Shown: piece after piece, positions 28,473-40,735 of the stretch
Numbering within the stretch: the stretch's first letter is position 1
How the letters are laid out: the number at the start of each line of letters is the position of its first letter
NCBI GenBank assembly: GCA_030431975.1
Contig: JAUIHP010000020.1
Span: 1 to 64,000, forward strand
DNA length: 64,000 bases
From: a bacterium
Lineage (GTDB): Bacteria; Eisenbacteria; RBG-16-71-46; CAIMUX01
Reading direction: 5' to 3'
The notes under the pieces: model-generated
The model's database searches: none
Told to the model about the DNA's origin: nothing
The model's input: the letters and a program-made list of their open reading frames with translations, nothing else
Program-made: the position numbers and the translations under genes

Positions 28473-30019
28473 CCGGTTCGAACCAACTTGAACCCGACTC
28501 CTGCCGCGGCCGCGGCGCCGGCGTCTCCCGTCGTGTCGCCGATCATCCAACTCCGCCCGAGATCCAAATCCAGATGCTGAGCGGCTCGAAGGAGCATTCC
28601 GGGTTTCGGTTTTCGGCAGGAGCACGGACCCGTGAAGTCAGGATGGTGCGGACAGACTTCGACCGCATCGAGAGCAACGTCTTCCCCCGCGAGCAGTTCG
28701 TGGAGTCGCAGGTGAATGCGTTCCAGTTCCTGCAGTCCGATGGTCCCCCGCGCCACCACGGATTGGTTCGTGACCAGAACGAGAGCAAAGCCCTCGTCAC
28801 GTAGAGCGCGAAGGGCGGCGCCCGCTCCCGGAACCAACTCCACGTCGTCCGCGCGATGGAGATAATCGACGAACCGGATCAGGGTCCCGTCGCGATCGAG
28901 GAAGACAGCCGGTCGTCGTTCGGATCCCGTGCGTACTTCGGCGCCTGGCAAGCTCGCGGGGAGACCAGCGCGCTCCCACAACGCGGTGGCCGCGGCATCC
29001 ACTTCGTCGACCGAAATCGCGTCCAAACACTCGAAGGACGTCGGGCACGTCTTCGCAAAACAAGGCGAACAGTGGATGGCCTTGTAGATCGTGTTTTGCG
29101 ATGCGCCGACAGGTCCGGTCCATGTGGGTGAGGTCGAACCGAAAATCGCCACCACCGAAAGCCCCGCCGCCTGTCCCATGTGCATGGCTCCCGAGTCGTT
29201 GCTGACCAGGACCCCGGCGTCGGCCAGGAGAGCCAGGCTTTGTCGCAGCGAGGTCTCCCCAGCCAAACTGAAGCTATGCTTCGCGTCCTCCATCCGCGCG
29301 TCCAACCGTCGGCATAGCTCGGCTTCGGCAGGACCCCCGAACCACAGGACCGGCCGACCCCGTTCCACCCAACGCCGGCCGACCGCGGCGAACCGGTCCT
29401 CCGGCCATCGCTTGGTCGGGCCGTAGGTCGCCCCCGGGGCCAGCACGAGAACCTCGCTCGGATTCCATTGTCGCGCTTCCCACCACTTCGAGGCCTCGGC
29501 TTGCTCTTCGGACCGAAGCGGAAAGCGAAGCCGGGGTCGGTCCGAACGGAGCGCTCGACCCAGGACGCGTCGGGCCAGCATGTCGCCGAGTTGGTGGTAC
29601 TGCTCGCGAAGATGAATGTCCCGCCGCGGCACCGGACCGACATCGGTCAGAAGCGCCTTGCGGCCGTCTCCTGGCCACCCCAGACGCACCTCGGCTCCCG
29701 AGAGACGAGCGAGCAAAGCTGAAGAAAAGGACGGTGGAAGGATGAGCGCTGCGTCCGGACTCACCGCTCTCATTTGGTCGACCGCCGCGTTCCAGGCCCG
29801 CAAACCCCGCATTCGCGCAGGAAGCGGATGCAGACGAAACGGAAAGTCAAGTCCCTCGAAGAGGGGCGCGGTTCTGGGAATGGCGAAGAGGTGCCACTCG
29901 ACTTCGGGAAACTGGTGTCCGAGAGCCTGGATCGTCGGACCCGCCATGACGGCATCCCCGATCCAGTTGGGAACGCGGATGGCGACCCGCTTTCTGCGTC
30001 CTTCGAGCACCGACTTCAT
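28364..30019 (-). CDS. Fusion: heptosyltransferase (GT9) + heptose-bisphosphate phosphatase (GmhB-like)
   Basis: 551 residues with two enzymes. Residues 1-345 are a WaaF-type glycosyltransferase family 9 domain (RVPNWIGDAVMAGPTIQAL at the start, VLAPGATYGPTKRWPEDRF, VSNDSGAMHMGQAAGLSVVAIFG), which adds heptose to the LPS inner core. Residues 360-545 are a GmhB-type HAD phosphatase: FLDRDGTLI, VTNQSVVARG, the zinc loop CPHHPDF...CSCRKP, and WMIGDTTGDAGAA. The second removes the C7 phosphate during ADP-heptose synthesis, so one protein joins donor synthesis and transfer. The first gene overlaps the TPR gene upstream by 4 nt. Confidence 0.9.
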   Translation of the reverse strand: MKSVLEGRRKRVAIRVPNWIGDAVMAGPTIQALGHQFPEVEWHLFAIPRTAPLFEGLDFPFRLHPLPARMRGLRAWNAAVDQMRAVSPDAALILPPSFSSALLARLSGAEVRLGWPGDGRKALLTDVGPVPRRDIHLREQYHQLGDMLARRVLGRALRSDRPRLRFPLRSEEQAEASKWWEARQWNPSEVLVLAPGATYGPTKRWPEDRFAAVGRRWVERGRPVLWFGGPAEAELCRRLDARMEDAKHSFSLAGETSLRQSLALLADAGVLVSNDSGAMHMGQAAGLSVVAIFGSTSPTWTGPVGASQNTIYKAIHCSPCFAKTCPTSFECLDAISVDEVDAAATALWERAGLPASLPGAEVRTGSERRPAVFLDRDGTLIRFVDYLHRADDVELVPGAGAALRALRDEGFALVLVTNQSVVARGTIGLQELERIHLRLHELLAGEDVALDAVEVCPHHPDFTGPCSCRKPKPGMLLRAAQHLDLDLGRSWMIGDTTGDAGAAAAAGVGFKLVRTGYGAEVEASLSGVEACDDLVTASQSILSSLRTAPQR

Positions 30020-32052
30020 CCGCCCTCGCCGCCCCGCAACTCGAGAAGGACCTCCTCAATCTGTGCGCGCCGCTGCGGACTTGGGGAAAGCTCGAGCACT
30101 CTCTCGAGCGCTGTTCGGGCCAGCTCCGCCCGGCCCAGCGCAAGGAAGGTGCGAGCCAGTTCGTAGTGCGCATCCGTGAAGTCCGGCTTGGCCGCGACCG
30201 CGCGGCGGAAGAATCCCTCTGCACGCTCCAGAGCGCCGACCTCGCTGTAGGCCCGTCCCGCGTTGAAGAGCAGTTCGGGCGAGTTGGGCGCGATCCGAAG
30301 AGCGTTGTCGAATACCCGGGCTGCGGCTTCCCACTCCCCGTCGAGGAGATAGATCGATCCCAGATTGTTTTGCAACGAAACCCGGCTCGGATCCAGACGG
30401 ACACCGATCTCGAAGATTCGGGTCGCCGCCGAACGCTGACCCTGTTCCGCGTAGGTCGAGCCCAACTGCGTCAGAAAAGCTCCCAAATCCGCGGGGTCTT
30501 CGACCGCCTGCAACTCGTCACCGGAAGGGAGTCGCGAAAACTCCCCGTCGGCGGGAACGGTCACGAGCACGAGCCTCTTCCCTTCCTCTCCCCACGTTTC
30601 GACAACGGTTCCGAAATCGCGAAGCTGGCCGTAGAAATGGGCGGGCAAGTCACGCCCGACATTCCTCTTTGTCAATGACTCGTCGAGTAGAACGTGTGTG
30701 AACCCGTGATACCAACGCGGCCAGTAGGCGAAGTCATACCGATTGGGCGCACGGCTGTCGCGGGGAAGGACGAAATGATTCTGCTCGAGCTGCGCTCCCC
30801 CGGGAAGCGGGCGCTCCAGGAGAATGAGGGCGTCGGCGTCGACTTTGACATCGATCCATTTCGCGACCGCCTCCGCGTCGATAGAGGGACCCGGACCCGA
30901 CGAAAGCAACGGACCGACGCTCCCGATGAGCAAGGCCGCCGGAAGAATCCGCTCTGCCCAGGTTGGGAGACGGTGCTGGATCCCGGAGACTCCCAGAACC
31001 AAAGCTACGGCCAGCGAGGGGCCGACGGCCAGCTGCATGGAATCAAAGCTCCGTAGACCCGAGGCCCATGGCAGAACCGAACCCAGCACGAAGACGAGAG
31101 CGAACCAAAGCAAAAGCGGCGACGGCCACCTTCGACCGGCAAGAACAGCCAGGACCAGGAGTGCGGGCAACACGAACCAACCCAGAACCGGGAACAACGT
31201 CAGAACGTCCCAACCTGCTGAAGCCGTCACCGCGCTGTGAAGACTCCAACCACCCATCCGGAACCATTCCGTGAAAAGGACCTCGCCAAGCTGGAGCGGT
31301 TGGCGCAATCGTTCCGGCTCGAGGGCAAAGGCCAACGACAACGAGACGACGACCGAAGCGATGAGGTTCTCCGCCCGAACCCGCTTGACCGCTGCAGCGA
31401 GCAGCGCGGCGACGACGAACGGCCAGAGCCCCCCCGCCCACGCCAGAACACATCCCAGGACCGCTCCGAATCCCAGTCCCCAGGTCATTCCCGAACCCAC
31501 AGCCGCTCCCAGACGCCAGGTCAGGAGGAGAAGTCCGAGGGCGCCCGGCACGCCGGGCGAGGTCTGAGCGACAGCCAGGCGAAGTCCAGGCGCCATGAGA
31601 AGCAGGAGGAAGACCAACGCCGGAAAGAGAAGCGAAACCCGTTGGGACAGGACCGCGGCGAGGAGCACGACCGTCGCGGCGAGCAGAGACCACACGCCCC
31701 GAACCCGGGCACGCTGTGTCTCCTCCGATTCCAACCATCGCGAGAGTCGGGAGCTTTCGTTCCTGCTGACCAGGTGATCGGCGGAGAAGGCTGCGGCGAG
31801 GGCGAGGCCCGGCGGCGTGGTCCATCCGGGTAACTCAGGCCGTGAATCCCCGGGTTCGCCGAGGCGAAGGACGGACTCGGCGCGCTCGAGCACGAGGTCC
31901 GCGTTCCGCCCATCTTCCGGTGGAGCCGCCGCGTAGAAGAAAGCGGCAAGGGCAAGAAGAAGAACTCCTCTTGCCCCGTAGGTCATCCACCCGGGCCGTT
32001 TTCGGCCTAGGCTCGTTTGTCGTAGATCAGTAGTCGAGTCCGAATGAGACAT
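30016..32052 (-). CDS. Multi-helix membrane protein with C-terminal TPRs
   Basis: 678 residues. About ten hydrophobic helices across residues 25-380, a periplasmic domain of about 100 residues, and at the C-terminus four TPR-like units (LNNLGSIYLLDGEWEAAARVF, LLFNAGRAYSEVGALERAEGFF, AHYELARTFLALGRAELARTAL). The layout recalls oligosaccharyltransferase/GT-C-like proteins, but the catalytic Asp motif of GT-C enzymes is not evident, so the label stays general. The ATG overlaps the end of the upstream gene by 26 nt; its ribosome site is weak and the true start might be an ATG at about 31986. Confidence 0.75.
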   Translation of the reverse strand: MSHSDSTTDLRQTSLGRKRPGWMTYGARGVLLLALAAFFYAAAPPEDGRNADLVLERAESVLRLGEPGDSRPELPGWTTPPGLALAAAFSADHLVSRNESSRLSRWLESEETQRARVRGVWSLLAATVVLLAAVLSQRVSLLFPALVFLLLLMAPGLRLAVAQTSPGVPGALGLLLLTWRLGAAVGSGMTWGLGFGAVLGCVLAWAGGLWPFVVAALLAAAVKRVRAENLIASVVVSLSLAFALEPERLRQPLQLGEVLFTEWFRMGGWSLHSAVTASAGWDVLTLFPVLGWFVLPALLVLAVLAGRRWPSPLLLWFALVFVLGSVLPWASGLRSFDSMQLAVGPSLAVALVLGVSGIQHRLPTWAERILPAALLIGSVGPLLSSGPGPSIDAEAVAKWIDVKVDADALILLERPLPGGAQLEQNHFVLPRDSRAPNRYDFAYWPRWYHGFTHVLLDESLTKRNVGRDLPAHFYGQLRDFGTVVETWGEEGKRLVLVTVPADGEFSRLPSGDELQAVEDPADLGAFLTQLGSTYAEQGQRSAATRIFEIGVRLDPSRVSLQNNLGSIYLLDGEWEAAARVFDNALRIAPNSPELLFNAGRAYSEVGALERAEGFFRRAVAAKPDFTDAHYELARTFLALGRAELARTALERVLELSPSPQRRAQIEEVLLELRGGEGG

Positions 32053-35000
32053 ATCCCGCCGGCTTTCCGATGTTGGTGTGCAGATCGGTCCGCCAGGCCA
32101 GATCCCACTTCAGAATCGTAAAGCCGAGATTCATGCTCGTCGAGAGTCCGTAACTCGCATTCAGGTCCCGAAGCCGGAAAGAGTCGCCGTGGGACTCGGA
32201 CGGCTTGAAAGCCGAATTGCTGTCCCAAGCTCCCCCGATGTCGAAGAAGAGGGCCCCGCGGACGCCCTGCAGAACCAACGGCAACGGCCATCCCATACGC
32301 AGCTGCTCGATAAGAGGGAAGCGGAACTCGACGTTGGCCATCCCGATCTTCGTACCCCGGAACTCGCCGTAGTCGTATCCCCGAACGGTGTAGGGACCGC
32401 CGATGCGGAAGTACTGCGGGTCCCGTCCATCCGAGGTGGCGCCAATGAAACGGACGGCCAGCGCGTACCGCTGTTTGAGGTTGTAGTACCGCCGGAAGTC
32501 GGCCAGTGCCGTCTGGTAGCTCAGGTCTCCGATCGCAACATCGTACGAGATCCGGTCCCGTCCACCACTGATCGGCCCGGTGTATCCGTACAGGGTGTTG
32601 TCGTTGACCAGAGCGAGTCCCGGCTGGAAGTAGTAGCGGGTTCCCTCGTTGTCGATGCTGAGTTCGCGCGAGGCAAAACTTCCCCGGTAGACGGACTCGG
32701 AGACGGCCAGGCCCGAAAGGGAAGTCTCGATGCGCCGGAAACGATCGAACGGACGCTGGAAGGTGATGTTCGCGCCCCGATAGACCTGGCTCACGAAATC
32801 GTCGGTGTCTTCGGCCGTGAAGACATAGAAATCGTTCCGGTACTGGAACGCGGACACACCCCAGTTGGTCCGGCCTTTCAGGTTGGTATAGCCCAGAAAG
32901 AGATCGGAATCGCTGAAGCTTCCGTAGACATCCGCTCCGACCAGGATCAGTTGGTTACCGAGGACATCCGAGAACTGAAGAACACTCTGCGCGGCCAGTC
33001 CGACGTTGTTGGCGAAGAAACCGTTCGCGGAAACGAAGTCAGCGCTGAACTTCGCGCGGTAGCGGTTGATCTTGAATCCCGACGGATCGGGCAGGTCACG
33101 GTTCTCGGCAAAAACCTGTTCGACGTCGATTTCGTCGCGCGTTTCCCGGTCCCGCGCCATTACCGGCAGGGACTCGTCCCGTGCATAGGCCGCTTCCGGA
33201 GAGTCGATGTCCCGAATCTCCGACCACAGGCTGTCGAGACGGGCCTCGATCTCTTCTTCCGTAAACTCGGGTGGTGCGGCTTCCGCGGTGTCGCCGTTCG
33301 GAAGGACCGCGGTCGCCGGAGCCGATGACGCGGAGTCGGTCCCGTAGGCGCCCAAGTCCTCGGCCGACTCGTCGTTCACACTTTCATCAGGACCTTCGGC
33401 CGCGTTGTCGGAAGCCCAGTCGGTCGGTTGCGGAAGCGTCCGACCGTCGTCGAGGACGACACGCACGGCCAGCGGATCCTCATCGACGAGGAGAGGCTCG
33501 GTCGCCGGGTCGACCCATGGTTCGGATTCGTCCCACAGCTTCATCGGATCCTTCATGGCAAAGAGATCGAGTCCTCCGCGACTGAAGGCGGAGAAGACGA
33601 CCCGCTCGCCATTCCGCGAGAGAGACATCGACGTTCCCGTCGGAATGATCCCGCTGATGCCCGTCAGCACGTTGGTGATGCGACGGTCTTCTCCCGTGGC
33701 CAGATCGCGAATGAAGAGATTGGCGATGCCGGAGCGGTTGGAAACGTAGAGGATCTTCGCGTCGTTCTCGAGAAAGTGCGGGCTGATGTTCGTCCCGACC
33801 TGATTCGGAAGGACCTCGATCTCCCCCGTCTCCACGTGATAGATGGCCAGACTCGGGTCCGCGAAGAGAAGCCGCTCGAAGTCGGTGCCCGCACCCCGGT
33901 CTGTAACGAAGATGATCTTCGTGCCGTCGGCAGAGTAGCGCGGTTCCCGAACCATGTGCCGGTCGCTGGTCAACTGTTCCAGATCACTGCCGTCGACTCG
34001 AGCCCGGTAGAGGTCCGAGCTTCCATCATCCATTCCGGAGAAGACGATCCACGCTCCGTCATTGGAAAAGGACGGGCTGTTGATGCCGTCGAGATCGAAC
34101 TCGAGTTTGGAGAGGATCTTTCCATCGCGCACGCGCTGCACGTAGATGGCATCGCGGCCCTTGTTGAGCGCGGCAAAACAGATGCGTTCGCCGTCCGGCC
34201 CCCAGTCCGCAGAGCTTCGGAAGTAACGGAGGCTTTCGAACTCCGGATTGCGCTCACCCTTGACCAGTCGCTTCTCGACCTTTCCGTCGATGGCCGAAGC
34301 CAGGTAGAGGTCGTTGTAGAGAGAGCGGTCGCTGAAGAAAACGATGTGCTTTCCATCGGGCGAAATGGACGGCGAAAGATTGACGTTGGCCAACTCACGT
34401 TCGGAGTGCGTCAGACGCACGGCAAAGTCATCGGGACGCTCGTGATCGGCAACGGTCGGCAGATAGGTCTTCCGCATCTCCTGAACGAAGTTGTCGCTCA
34501 GTTTTTCCATCGTGATGCCCAAAGTCTCTTCGAGAGCGCGGGGAACGGATTGCGTCACCGTCATCTTCTTGAAGAGATCACCAATCTTCTCGTCCCCGAA
34601 GGTGTGGCCGATGTAGGACATGATGGCCTGGCCGTAGCGGTAGACGCGGATGTCGGCCACGCGGTCCATGACCGTGACCGGAAGCAGGTAGCCCTCGAGA
34701 GCGCCGTCGCGTAGCCACATTTCGGTGAGCGCGTCGACGTCGCCCGTGGAAAGGTACTCGGCCATTCCTTCCATGACCCAGAGCGGCGGAAGCCAGCGGA
34801 AGCCTCCTCCCATGCCCCGGCCGCCGGCCGCAAGCAGGTCGAGCTGGAAGGCGTGGACGAGCTCATGAGTCAGGACGTGGTCAACTTCGCCGTAGTCACC
34901 GGTGACGGGCATGGCCACGCGGCGCTTCAGAAACTCGGTGAAGCCCCCGGTCCCCTCTCCGACAAAACCGGCGGAGACGTTGGAAACCTGGAACTCCGCG

Positions 35001-35287
35001 TGGGAGGCCGAAAGGATCAGCGGGACCGGATTGCGAATCTCGTGATCCAGAATCGTCGAGAGCCGGGCATAGGCGCGTTCCGCCATCCGGGCGACATCGA
35101 GAGCCACACGACGTTCACCTTCGTGGAAGTAGACGTGGAAGTTGTCCGTCTCGATGATCGACCACTCGTGGTCTTTGTACTGGACCTTGTTTTGTCCGAA
35201 GTACTGAGCGGACGAAGGCGATGCAGCCAGGATGAGAAGGGTGAAGAAGAGCAGAAACGACCGGAGGGTCTGGGTCTGAAACAGCAT
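32027..35287 (-). CDS. Outer-membrane protein: peptidase MA-like + beta-propeller + surface-antigen barrel
   Basis: 1086 residues. Signal peptide (1-28), a peptidase MA-type domain with the zinc motif HELVH at 141-145 and a distal MEGMAEY glutamate, a TolB-like WD40 propeller (about 290-600: SPSISPDGKHIVFFSDR and repeats of SPDG/NDGAWIVF type), a low-complexity acidic linker, and a C-terminal BamA/Omp85-like barrel (about 745-1086, ending in YVSFGLDY). Known in several candidate phyla as hypothetical. The exposed parts suggest a cell-surface or periplasmic protease anchored by its own barrel. Confidence 0.85.
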   Translation of the reverse strand: MLFQTQTLRSFLLFFTLLILAASPSSAQYFGQNKVQYKDHEWSIIETDNFHVYFHEGERRVALDVARMAERAYARLSTILDHEIRNPVPLILSASHAEFQVSNVSAGFVGEGTGGFTEFLKRRVAMPVTGDYGEVDHVLTHELVHAFQLDLLAAGGRGMGGGFRWLPPLWVMEGMAEYLSTGDVDALTEMWLRDGALEGYLLPVTVMDRVADIRVYRYGQAIMSYIGHTFGDEKIGDLFKKMTVTQSVPRALEETLGITMEKLSDNFVQEMRKTYLPTVADHERPDDFAVRLTHSERELANVNLSPSISPDGKHIVFFSDRSLYNDLYLASAIDGKVEKRLVKGERNPEFESLRYFRSSADWGPDGERICFAALNKGRDAIYVQRVRDGKILSKLEFDLDGINSPSFSNDGAWIVFSGMDDGSSDLYRARVDGSDLEQLTSDRHMVREPRYSADGTKIIFVTDRGAGTDFERLLFADPSLAIYHVETGEIEVLPNQVGTNISPHFLENDAKILYVSNRSGIANLFIRDLATGEDRRITNVLTGISGIIPTGTSMSLSRNGERVVFSAFSRGGLDLFAMKDPMKLWDESEPWVDPATEPLLVDEDPLAVRVVLDDGRTLPQPTDWASDNAAEGPDESVNDESAEDLGAYGTDSASSAPATAVLPNGDTAEAAPPEFTEEEIEARLDSLWSEIRDIDSPEAAYARDESLPVMARDRETRDEIDVEQVFAENRDLPDPSGFKINRYRAKFSADFVSANGFFANNVGLAAQSVLQFSDVLGNQLILVGADVYGSFSDSDLFLGYTNLKGRTNWGVSAFQYRNDFYVFTAEDTDDFVSQVYRGANITFQRPFDRFRRIETSLSGLAVSESVYRGSFASRELSIDNEGTRYYFQPGLALVNDNTLYGYTGPISGGRDRISYDVAIGDLSYQTALADFRRYYNLKQRYALAVRFIGATSDGRDPQYFRIGGPYTVRGYDYGEFRGTKIGMANVEFRFPLIEQLRMGWPLPLVLQGVRGALFFDIGGAWDSNSAFKPSESHGDSFRLRDLNASYGLSTSMNLGFTILKWDLAWRTDLHTNIGKPAGYVSFGLDY

Positions 35288-37842: not shown

Positions 37843-37916
37843 TGACCCCGGCAGGATTCGAACCTGCGACCTTCTGCTCCGGAGGCAGACGCTCTATCCA
37901 GCTGAGCTACGGGGCC
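37843..37916 (-). tRNA. tRNA-Arg (anticodon CCG)
   Basis: A full cloverleaf folds on the minus strand: acceptor GGCCCCG / CGGGGTC, D stem GCTC/GAGC, anticodon stem TCTGC/GCAGA with loop CTCCGGA (anticodon CCG, reads CGG), T stem GCAGG/CCTGC with loop TTCGAAT, discriminator A; CCA is not encoded. Its first 10 nt overlap the 3' end of trpB on the same strand. Confidence 0.95.
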
Positions 37917-39148
37917 TCTTCGAGGATCCGGGCAACGGATTGGACATCTTTGTCCCCTCGCCCGGACATGTTGACGAGTATCAGATCACTATCAGAGGCG
38001 CAAGCGGCCAGTTTCCGGAGATGGGCTACGGCGTGCGCAGACTCGAGCGCGGGGATGATTCCGGTGAGCCGGGCACAGTCCTGGAATGCGGCCAGAGCCT
38101 CTTCGTCGGTCGCAGAAACGTACTCGACCCGTCCCTCATCATGGAGCTGGGCGTGCTCCGGCCCTACCGCCGGGTAATCCAGGCCCGCGGACACGGAATG
38201 CGTCTCCCGGATCTGGCCGTTCTCGTCCTCGAGCAGATAGGTCTTGGTCCCGTGAAGGACGCCGACCTTCTTCTCGGCGAAGCGGGCGGCGTGGCGACCG
38301 GTATCGACCCCTTCCCCTCCCGCTTCGACGGCGATCATGGCGACGTCCGAGTCTGCCAGAAACGGATGGAAGAGACCGATGGCGTTCGACCCTCCACCGA
38401 CACAGGCCACGAGGTGGGTCGGGAGTCGGCCCTCCGCGTCCAGAATCTGCGCCCGCGCTTCCTTGCCGATGACGGACTGGAAGTCCCGGACGATGGTCGG
38501 AAACGGATGCGGCCCCAGAACGGACCCCAGGATGTAGTGGGTGTCGTCGACGTTCGTGACCCAGTCGCGCATGGCTTCGTTGATCGCGTCCTTCAGCGTC
38601 TGGCTACCGGACTCGACAGCAACGACCTCCGCGCCGAGAAGCTTCATTCGAAAGACGTTGAGAGCCTGGCGTCGGGTGTCCTCGAGCCCCATGTAAATGA
38701 CGCAGTCGAGGCCGAGGAGCGCGCAGGCCGTGGCGGTGGCCACTCCGTGTTGTCCGGCGCCGGTCTCGGCAATGATCCGCTTCTTGCCGAGCTTGCTCTG
38801 GGCGAGCAGCGCCTGGCCGAGTGAGTTGTTGATCTTGTGCGCGCCGGTATGGGCCAGGTCTTCGCGCTTGAAGTAGATCCGCGGCGCCTTGCCCGGTTCC
38901 GCCCAGGCCCGCTCCAGTTGTTCGACACGGTAGAGCGGAGTCGGCCGCCCAACGAAGCGCGCGAGCAGCCGGTCGAACTCGGACCAGAACTCGGGCTCGC
39001 CACGGACGGCTTCGTAGGCAAGGACAAGCTCATCCAGAGCCGCACTCAGGGTTTCCGGAATGAAGCTGCCGCCGTACGGACCGAACCGTCCGGTGTCGGA
39101 AGAAGAGGCAAGGGGATTCGCGTCGTTGTCGCTGGGAGATGGACTCAC
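37907..39148 (-). CDS. trpB: Tryptophan synthase beta subunit
   Basis: 413 residues, normal for TrpB. It joins indole and serine with pyridoxal phosphate. [15 protein letters not shown], the PLP lysine in [28 protein letters not shown], and the phosphate loop [11 protein letters not shown] are intact. The stop codon (TAG at 37909-37907) falls inside the tRNA-Arg gene. It follows trpF by 1 nt. Unusually, no trpA is adjacent. Confidence 0.95.
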
Positions 39149-39149
39149 G

Positions 39150-39950
39150 TCAGATCTCTTTCTTTCCCGGGAGCGGCCCGACCGGTTGCGGTGAGGTCAC
39201 TTCCCGAATCGCTTCGAAGTATTTTAGCAGGAGCTGCGGATCTTTCTTTCCCGGTTCGCTCTCCAGTCGCGAGGACGCGTCCACCGCGTAGGGCCGCACG
39301 CGACGGATGGCTTCAGCGACATTGTCCGGGCCGAGTCCGCCGGCAAGAAACAAACGGGAGCGTGCCGCAGATCCTTCCGCTGGCCGTCCCGCTGGCCGTT
39401 CAGCGGTTCCTTTCGCGAGTCGGGCGCTGCTTTCTTCTGCAGACCGTCCGGCGGGTTCCTGTTCCGTAAAGTCCCAGTCGACGCGGAAACTCTCCAGGAT
39501 CGACCAGTCGAAACTGCGGCCGCTACCACCACCTTGCTTGGATGGTGTATCGACAAGCCACGCGAACGGCCTCTCCCCCGTGACCGAAGACAAGCCTTCG
39601 AGCCCCCCGGACTCGGCGCCCACAGCTTCCAGTTCCCGGCTCGTCCGCACTTCAATCAGACGGGACGAATCAAACGCGAACCCTTTGGCGGCGCGGATCA
39701 CCTGGACGAAGTCGAGGCCTAGAGCTTCCACATGATCGTTGACTTCGCGCGTGTCCGGATCGACGAAGACACCGACGGTTCGAAGCTCCGGGAACTCTGC
39801 ACGCACATCCGGAAGCCAAGCAGACAGTGCGTTCGGATCGGCACGCCGCGGGCTTTCGGCAAAGATGAAACCGAGGAAGGCCGCGCCCAACTCGCCCGCG
39901 CATCGGGCGTCTTCCGCCCGCGTCAACCCGCAGATCTTGACCCGAATCAG
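39150..39950 (-). CDS. trpF: Phosphoribosylanthranilate isomerase, apparent CTG start
   Basis: About 266 residues. TrpF proteins start near VKICGLT, and that motif ([14 protein letters not shown]) lies upstream of the only canonical start (TTG at 39926), which would cut it off. In frame before it are ATT at 39947 and CTG at 39950; the CTG overlaps the trpC stop as CTGA, like the ATGA overlaps in the rest of this operon, and GGAGAGG lies 7 nt upstream. I take CTG as the start. Residues about 159-197 (Arg/Ser/Ala/Glu/Pro-rich) are an insertion before [12 protein letters not shown], the family's phosphate-binding loop. Product feeds TrpC. Confidence 0.85.
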
Positions 39951-40735
39951 GAGTCCGCCTCTCCGCGCAAACGGCGCAGCGCAACTCCCGGATCGTTCTC
40001 GCGCATCAGGGACTCACCGACCAGACATCCGTCAAAGCCCGTCTCCTTCATGAGAACGACGTCGTCGCGCGTCTTGATTCCGCTCTCGGCGAGACGGGTC
40101 CCTTCGGGCAGGTACGGAACGAGCCGCGCACTGGTGGCCAGATCGACTTCGAAAGTCTTGAGATCCCGGTGGTTCACACCGATGAGTTCCGGTTCCAACT
40201 CGTGTGCGAGGTCGCACTCGGACTCGTGATGAACTTCGACCAGGACATCGAGACCGAGTTCCCGGGCCGCGGCGCGTACCTCGATCAGCATGGGCCGGTC
40301 CTTGACGGCCGCGATGAGAAGGATCGCGTCCGCACCCAGGCCGCGGCCCAGCGCAACCTGGTACGGGTCGACGAAGAAGTCCTTCATGAGAACGGGGAGC
40401 CCGACTTCGCGAACCCGGGGAAGGTCGGCCAGTTCTCCACGGAAGTACTCTTCTTCCGTCAGCAACGAAATCGCGGACGCGCCGGCCGATTGGTAGGTCT
40501 TCGCAATCTCGACCGCGTCGGCTCCCGGACGAATCCATCCGGCCGAGGGAGAGGCCCGTTTGATCTCGCAGAGAAAGCGCATCTCTTCCCCGTGCGGTCG
40601 ACGGAGAGCTGCGGAAAGAGACCGCCGCTGGTCGCGCCAAATCGACTCGGACTCGAGGTCGGCCCAGGTTCGTTCCTTCTTCAGCTGGGTGACTCGCACA
40701 CGCTTGGCCGCGCAAATCTCGTCGAGAATGGTCAC
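39947..40735 (-). CDS. trpC: Indole-3-glycerol-phosphate synthase
   Basis: 262 residues. Catalytic motifs CEIKRASPSAG, LMKDFFVDPYQ, LVEVHHESE, GVNHRDLKTFEVD and ESGIKTRDDV are all present. It converts CdRP to indole-glycerol phosphate. Starts by a 4-nt overlap with trpD and ends by a CTGA overlap with trpF. Confidence 0.95.
   Translation of the reverse strand: MTILDEICAAKRVRVTQLKKERTWADLESESIWRDQRRSLSAALRRPHGEEMRFLCEIKRASPSAGWIRPGADAVEIAKTYQSAGASAISLLTEEEYFRGELADLPRVREVGLPVLMKDFFVDPYQVALGRGLGADAILLIAAVKDRPMLIEVRAAARELGLDVLVEVHHESECDLAHELEPELIGVNHRDLKTFEVDLATSARLVPYLPEGTRLAESGIKTRDDVVLMKETGFDGCLVGESLMRENDPGVALRRLRGEADS

Follow-up and report, generated by a model that had tools for sequence, protein, structure and literature searches.

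The window analysed here is a 64,000-nucleotide stretch (contig JAUIHP010000020.1, positions 1 to 64,000) of a Candidatus Eisenbacteria genome (assembly GCA_030431975.1). An open reading frame (ORF) on its minus strand (32027-35287, ATG start; the coordinates first proposed were confirmed) encodes a protein of 1086 amino acids that combines a gluzincin-type zinc peptidase domain, a TolB-like propeller and an Omp85 barrel. The occurrence of these three modules in one chain, together with an invariant active site, lends good support to the prediction that the peptidase is anchored by its own barrel. The family is widely conserved, falls into two paralogue groups (A, which includes the window protein, and B), shows partial linkage to genes of outer membrane assembly, and co-occurs with TamB. 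At close to even chances, these proteins may be outer-membrane-anchored, periplasm-facing proteases for outer membrane assembly or quality control, group A acting with the translocation and assembly module (TAM) of TamA and TamB, and group B with a BamB-like protein.

The chain runs from a probable signal peptide through the gluzincin peptidase domain, the TolB-like propeller and a variable linker to the Omp85 barrel, as follows:

35204-35287, minus strand: probable signal peptide, residues 1-28 (MLFQ...SSAQ), recognised by eye in the translation
34424-35203, minus strand: gluzincin (clan MA) zinc-metallopeptidase domain, residues ~29-288, from BSP and Peptidase_MA_2, the AlphaFold model and structural matches
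34853-34867, minus strand: HELVH zinc-binding motif (H141, E142, H145), from invariance in the alignment
34769-34771, minus strand: E173, presumed third zinc ligand, in a PxW..EG motif, from invariance in the alignment, the role by analogy with gluzincins
34640-34642, minus strand: Y216, putative catalytic tyrosine, from invariance in the alignment, the role by analogy with gluzincins
33518-34423, minus strand: TolB-like (PD40) beta-propeller, residues ~289-590, from PD40, TIGR02800 and TolB structures
33125-33517, minus strand: poorly conserved acidic linker, residues ~591-721, from low column identity
32030-33124, minus strand: Omp85 beta-barrel with an aromatic last residue, residues ~722-1086, from PF01103, TIGR03303 and structures matched by profile
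32375-32386, minus strand: VRGY, the Omp85 loop-6 signature, residues 968-971, from the alignment

When the window protein is searched by itself, its peptidase domain is weakly recognised (Pfam families BSP, 20.5 bits with the cut-off at 23.8, and Peptidase_MA_2, E 0.012). Among 12 aligned family members, the window protein being one, Peptidase_MA_2 is matched by nine (best E 7.1e-14) and BSP by seven (E <= 0.01). An AlphaFold model of residues 26-292 is of moderate confidence (mean predicted local distance difference test score (pLDDT) 64, predicted template modelling score (pTM) 0.69). In VIA-align, in which Z below ~13 may reflect merely a common arrangement when models are mostly helical, it matches the M30 peptidase lugdulysin (7bb8, Z 14.3 over 226 residues, root-mean-square deviation 4.7), bacterial collagenases (Z ~10-13) and M1 aminopeptidases (Z ~10-12). 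Foldseek found nothing for the same model at E <= 0.001 (best E 0.013). The assignment to the gluzincins is based on the VIA-align matches, on the sequence families matched and on the invariance of the active site; by VIA-align, the moderate-confidence model has the gluzincin fold. The window protein thus appears to share the peptidase fold and the HExxH...E site of lugdulysin (M30), the bacterial collagenases (M9) and the M1 aminopeptidases, but is only 9-17% identical to them in the structural alignments, and we know of no propeller-barrel fusion in these three groups.

Conservation of the active site is complete. In a 115-protein family alignment, from which L114 (on the same contig as L039) was omitted, all 113 rows with letters at these positions have H141, E142 and H145, and all 114 have E173 and Y216. 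Nine rows had originally been chosen with patterns containing active-site or loop-6 motifs; once these are removed, all five residues are identical in 105/105 rows with letters, of 106. The pattern HExxH with a downstream glutamate was found in all 60 outside-phylum sequences. By analogy with gluzincins, E173 is taken to be the third zinc ligand and Y216 the catalytic tyrosine; such invariance is what a working gluzincin would be expected to show.

The propeller matches PD40 (Pfam, E 3.5e-19), the TolB model TIGR02800 (E 2e-32, 112.7 bits, under the equivalog cut-off of 343.15) and a solved TolB structure (7mx5, E 2.3e-14). The barrel matches PF01103 (E 5.9e-13, 49.4 bits, over the curated cut-off of 24) and, like BamA and TamA, has the loop-6 RGY motif; VRGY in the window protein is an instance of the Omp85 (V/I/L)RG(Y/F) motif, R969 being kept in 111/114 and G970 in 107/114 rows with letters. 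It differs from BamA in reaching only 39.7 bits with the BamA model TIGR03303 (E 2e-10), far under the equivalog cut-off of 297.15, and from BamA and TamA in that a Pfam search of the window protein, taken to E 1, matched no POTRA domain. Up to the same E value there was no match to a patatin domain, or to PF00149, the calcineurin-like phosphoesterase family. With a 12-sequence family profile, the matches of the barrel part include 9ccg, a protein with a POTRA domain (E 9.7e-9), and BamA (8xnb, E 0.0014). Eight of the 12 aligned members match Omp85 at E <= 0.01 and four do not; the final residue is aromatic in 57 of the 60 outside-phylum proteins (by eye). Mean column identity is 0.10 across residues 600-720, versus 0.41-0.51 in the other domains. 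The window protein reaches no curated NCBIfam cut-off and so is named by no NCBIfam model. The original prediction of a peptidase, a TolB-type propeller and a BamA-like barrel in one chain is therefore borne out by the domain matches, as are its expectations of a barrel recognisable as Omp85-like by profile search and of a HELVH site conserved in every aligned row covering it.

The same prediction held the combination to be rare, which it evidently is not. Family matches were found in all 39 genomes of a first survey, the window genome included, and in 36 of 36 Candidatus Eisenbacteria genomes with a completeness of 85% or more, where some of the matches are fragments on short contigs. In a sample of 291 genomes, 117 match at E <= 1e-30, 26 of them from the phylum and 91 from outside it ("outside" means ranked beyond the phylum in the genome search, at least one such genome, G252, bearing the NCBI name Candidatus Eisenbacteria), although 21 of the 91 have a best E between 1e-30 and 1e-78 and may match through one domain only. 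At E <= 1e-90, 96 of the 291 genomes match, 70 of them outside the phylum. The sample is probably nearly all diderm, since POTRA proteins occur in 275/291. A full-length copy (L131, 1046 amino acids; one copy shown) is kept by an outside-phylum genome of 0.9 Mb that is 98% complete (G218). Further distant relatives (L116, L117 and L176; 163-199 bits with the A and B profiles) share neighbourhoods with an A gene; outside-phylum sequences below 300 bits with these profiles, found in the same three loci, were left out of the counts.

Among the best 20 of 35 matched records in a plasmid search, only a Salinibacter plasmid gene matches both peptidase and propeller (35% identity over residues 27-571). 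It lies on plasmid pSR116 of Salinibacter ruber (L113:8914-10815), is annotated as "basic secretory protein-like protein", and encodes 633 amino acids, too short for a barrel; the 493-amino-acid protein encoded downstream of it has no NCBIfam match at E <= 0.01. In the pSR116 protein, the enzyme half of the family occurs with no built-in anchor.

In a midpoint-rooted tree of 56 proteins (nine of them motif-picked; the duplicate L030 of L054 removed), 24 group B rows separate from 32 group A rows with a Shimodaira-Hasegawa-like approximate likelihood ratio test (SH-aLRT) support of 100. When 59 outside-phylum proteins are added (FastTree, midpoint root), the 24 B rows and seven outside proteins form one clade (support 1.0) apart from the 84 others. 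As this tree suggests, the A/B split may be older than the phylum, lateral transfer being also possible. The window genome has one of each: the window gene (A) and a B paralogue (contig C13, 58868-61528) that is 34-37% identical to it.

The two groups keep different neighbours. Within three genes of A, tamA, tamB or rseP was found at 10/23 loci in the phylum and at 5/53 outside it (two by rseP alone), 15/76 in total; near B, the corresponding counts are 0/24 and 0/7, so that B is near TAM at none of 31 loci. A tamB gene lies directly beside A (matched stretches <250 bases apart) in at least 13 of the 26 in-phylum genomes, including G023, where the gene caller missed TamB (L055) and the coordinates of the profile matches place it beside A, and in at least three genomes outside (G161, G227 and G285). 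Where the genes are linked, they usually run rseP, tamA, tamB, A, uvrD, gatA, with a type III glutamine synthetase gene between A and uvrD in some cases. Outside the phylum, rseP-tamA-tamB-A-uvrD was found (L170); other arrangements are tamB-A-uvrD (L166), tamB-A (L159), rseP-A-uvrD-gatA (L119) and rseP-A (L132). The neighbours were identified with Pfam (TamB, PF04357, E 9.5e-33; TamA, POTRA plus Omp85; RseP, Peptidase_M50 plus PDZ), except that uvrD, gatA, dxr and cdsA were named by eye. Group B has a BamB-like gene within three genes at 4/24 loci in the phylum and 4/7 outside (8/31), versus 0/76 for A; the window genome's copy of the BamB-like gene matches PQQ_2 (E 2.3e-34). A PEGA-domain gene is likewise found within three genes of B (6/24 in the phylum, 1/7 outside) and never of A (0/76).

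Presence of the family is also correlated with TamB across the sampled genomes. TamB was matched in 108 of the 117 family-bearing genomes versus 85 of the 174 that lack a family match, and outside the phylum in 82/91 family-bearing genomes versus the same 85/174. With the 96 stronger matches only, the figures are 91/96 versus 102/195 and, outside the phylum, 65/70 versus 102/195.

The predicted topology follows the usual layout of Omp85 proteins: a periplasmic location is favoured because a signal peptide and N-terminal soluble domains precede a C-terminal barrel. The protein would be exported by Sec and its C-terminal Omp85 barrel inserted in the outer membrane, leaving peptidase and propeller to hang from the barrel in the periplasm on the flexible linker. 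There the propeller could be a platform for docking or for the sorting of substrates, and the gluzincin domain could cut proteins that are being assembled, or are failing to assemble, in the outer membrane. The role in outer membrane assembly or quality control is proposed because part of the family is linked to tamA, tamB or rseP, or to the BamB-like gene; group A, including the window gene, would partner the TamA-TamB machinery, and group B the BamB-like propeller protein. Topology, catalytic activity, partnership with TAM or with the beta-barrel assembly machinery (BAM), and substrates are all inferred. Overall, the protein would resemble BepA, as a protease for quality control or maturation that has an Omp85 barrel in its own chain. 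BepA itself is a soluble protein consisting of an M48 peptidase and tetratricopeptide repeats (TPR); the window protein is of another gluzincin group and is fused to its own barrel, but is similarly proposed to be a zinc peptidase that acts on outer membrane proteins at an assembly machine. E. coli BepA, also the subject of PMC7950410, is described in PMC8423444 as a zinc peptidase of the periplasm that takes part in both the biogenesis and the degradation of LptD. The reading yields a testable hypothesis, that in some lineages outer membrane proteins are proofread by an Omp85-barrel protein carrying its own protease, and offers a candidate TAM partner. A bolder version, possible but on present evidence somewhat doubtful, makes the family a proteolytic branch of the Omp85 machinery, formed by an ancient pair of proteins whose Omp85 scaffold would incorporate an active metallopeptidase, with A as a third component of TamA-TamB and B as the core of a parallel device with BamB-like and PEGA-domain proteins. 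If true, A and B together would couple outer membrane protein insertion to proteolytic proofreading in many lineages.

Several observations weigh against the periplasmic protease for outer membrane assembly. The full-length AlphaFold model, made from three sequences (window, L038 and L039), failed outside the propeller, the only module with mostly good confidence (mean pLDDT 39 overall). No tamA, tamB or rseP gene was found within three genes at 13/23 A loci in the phylum (12 when G023 is counted as linked) or at 48/53 outside, several of the contigs being short. The tamA-tamB cluster on contig C10 of the window genome is without A, and A is not beside TAM there, so that the linkage to TAM is evidence from relatives. 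The family is present without a TamB match in nine genomes, five of which, G218 among them, have strong family matches; the Fisher tests of the co-occurrence take genomes as independent and ignore relatedness; and the BamB-like profile was built from only four sequences. Finally, the window genome also encodes M48-type peptidases, a TolB that is near-canonical, two TamA-TamB pairs and proteins that combine POTRA with Omp85, one of them probably BamA. With these TolB-, BamA- and TamA-TamB-type genes in the genome, the role of the window protein would be additional; replacement of TolB, BamA or TamA by it was rejected for the same reason. On contigs C10 (L094), C33 (L095) and others, the genome has a large Omp85 repertoire: 11 matches exceed the Pfam cut-off, counting the window gene and its B paralogue.

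Among other explanations, the one that survives best, though improbable, is a maturation or secretion device in which the peptidase trims one particular class of exported proteins or lipoproteins as they pass through the barrel or beside it. It draws on the invariant active site and on a putative lipoprotein, c1 (weak NHL and SGL propeller matches, lipobox by eye), whose gene is within three genes of B at 21/24 loci in the phylum and which would be its candidate partner. However, c1 is near A at only 6/23 loci, in keeping with the six loci at which A and B neighbour each other, and beside the seven outside-phylum B loci the sole c1 match is marginal (28 bits, L157). A secretion device had been among the original suggestions; the linkage seen is to outer membrane assembly genes and points to assembly or quality control instead. 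The c1 gene at L060:5361-6626 and its homologues encode candidate partners or substrates of B.

Less probable still is the self-anchored surface protease of the original prediction, in which the barrel would bring the N-terminal part of the protein to the outside of the cell, as was first proposed for PlpD. Its self-anchored half is retained, peptidase and barrel being in one chain, and Omp85/TpsB relatives do translocate proteins, as stated in PMC4104836. Its surface half is not supported by anything found: the peptidase precedes the barrel, in the position taken by the periplasmic domains of Omp85 proteins, the genes linked to the family are for periplasmic and outer membrane assembly, and the enzyme domain of PlpD, likewise fused N-terminally to an Omp85 barrel, is reported in PMC11116518 to be exclusively periplasmic. 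PlpD differs in its patatin-like domain and single POTRA domain; the window protein instead combines a propeller with a zinc peptidase and gave no match to POTRA. The least likely alternative is a peptidoglycan- or Tol-Pal-related anchor, the propeller binding Pal or another lipoprotein and the peptidase acting on envelope proteins: the best propeller matches are indeed to TolB, but the genome has a separate gene for a near-canonical TolB (C10:371409-372590; it scores 320 bits versus a cut-off of 343), and with 44 PD40/TolB-like matched stretches in the genome, a TolB match says little about a Tol-Pal role.

The closest described relatives of the periplasmic protease proposed here are in the Omp85 survey of Heinz and Lithgow (2014, PMC4104836), which describes a WD40-Omp85 subfamily with a TolB-like propeller, likens it to a BamA-BamB fusion and assigns it no function; propeller-Omp85 proteins, among other classes, are still called not well characterised by Hanson et al. 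(2024, PMC11116518). In both the WD40-Omp85 proteins and the window family, a TolB-like propeller is directly N-terminal to an Omp85 barrel without POTRA. The window family appears to differ in the invariant gluzincin domain that precedes the propeller (the main text of PMC4104836 names no peptidase in that subfamily, "peptidase" as the start of a word occurring 0 times), in its phylum-wide conservation, in its two paralogue groups and in the linkage of part of it to TAM or BamB-like genes. The same survey states that its additional Omp85 subfamilies, the Lipo and TamA groups excepted, are kept at genus level only. For a "Metallo" subfamily (PF00149) it proposes either quality control by proteolysis in the periplasm or a role at the surface. 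A protease on an Omp85 barrel is thus not a new idea: an enzyme called a metalloprotease is N-terminally fused to the barrel in the "Metallo" proteins as well, but its domain is PF00149, not a gluzincin, no propeller is described for it and conservation is at genus level only. The present analysis adds the conservation of the peptidase, the division into A and B and the linkage to neighbouring genes. Among the open-licence papers listed for the architecture or the TAM linkage, PMC4104836 and papers citing its classes apart, none announces in its title or the opening of its abstract a peptidase-propeller-Omp85 family or a link of such a family to TAM.

Downstream of the window gene and overlapping its ORF by 26 nucleotides is a further gene:

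30016-32052, minus strand: TPR-repeat protein gene, from TPR families, with membrane segments seen by eye

It is possibly a co-transcribed neighbour; the same TPR gene cluster is found within three genes of A at 5/23 A loci in the phylum. Elsewhere in the window (37907-40735, minus strand), trpB, trpF and trpC, named by eye, lie in a row.

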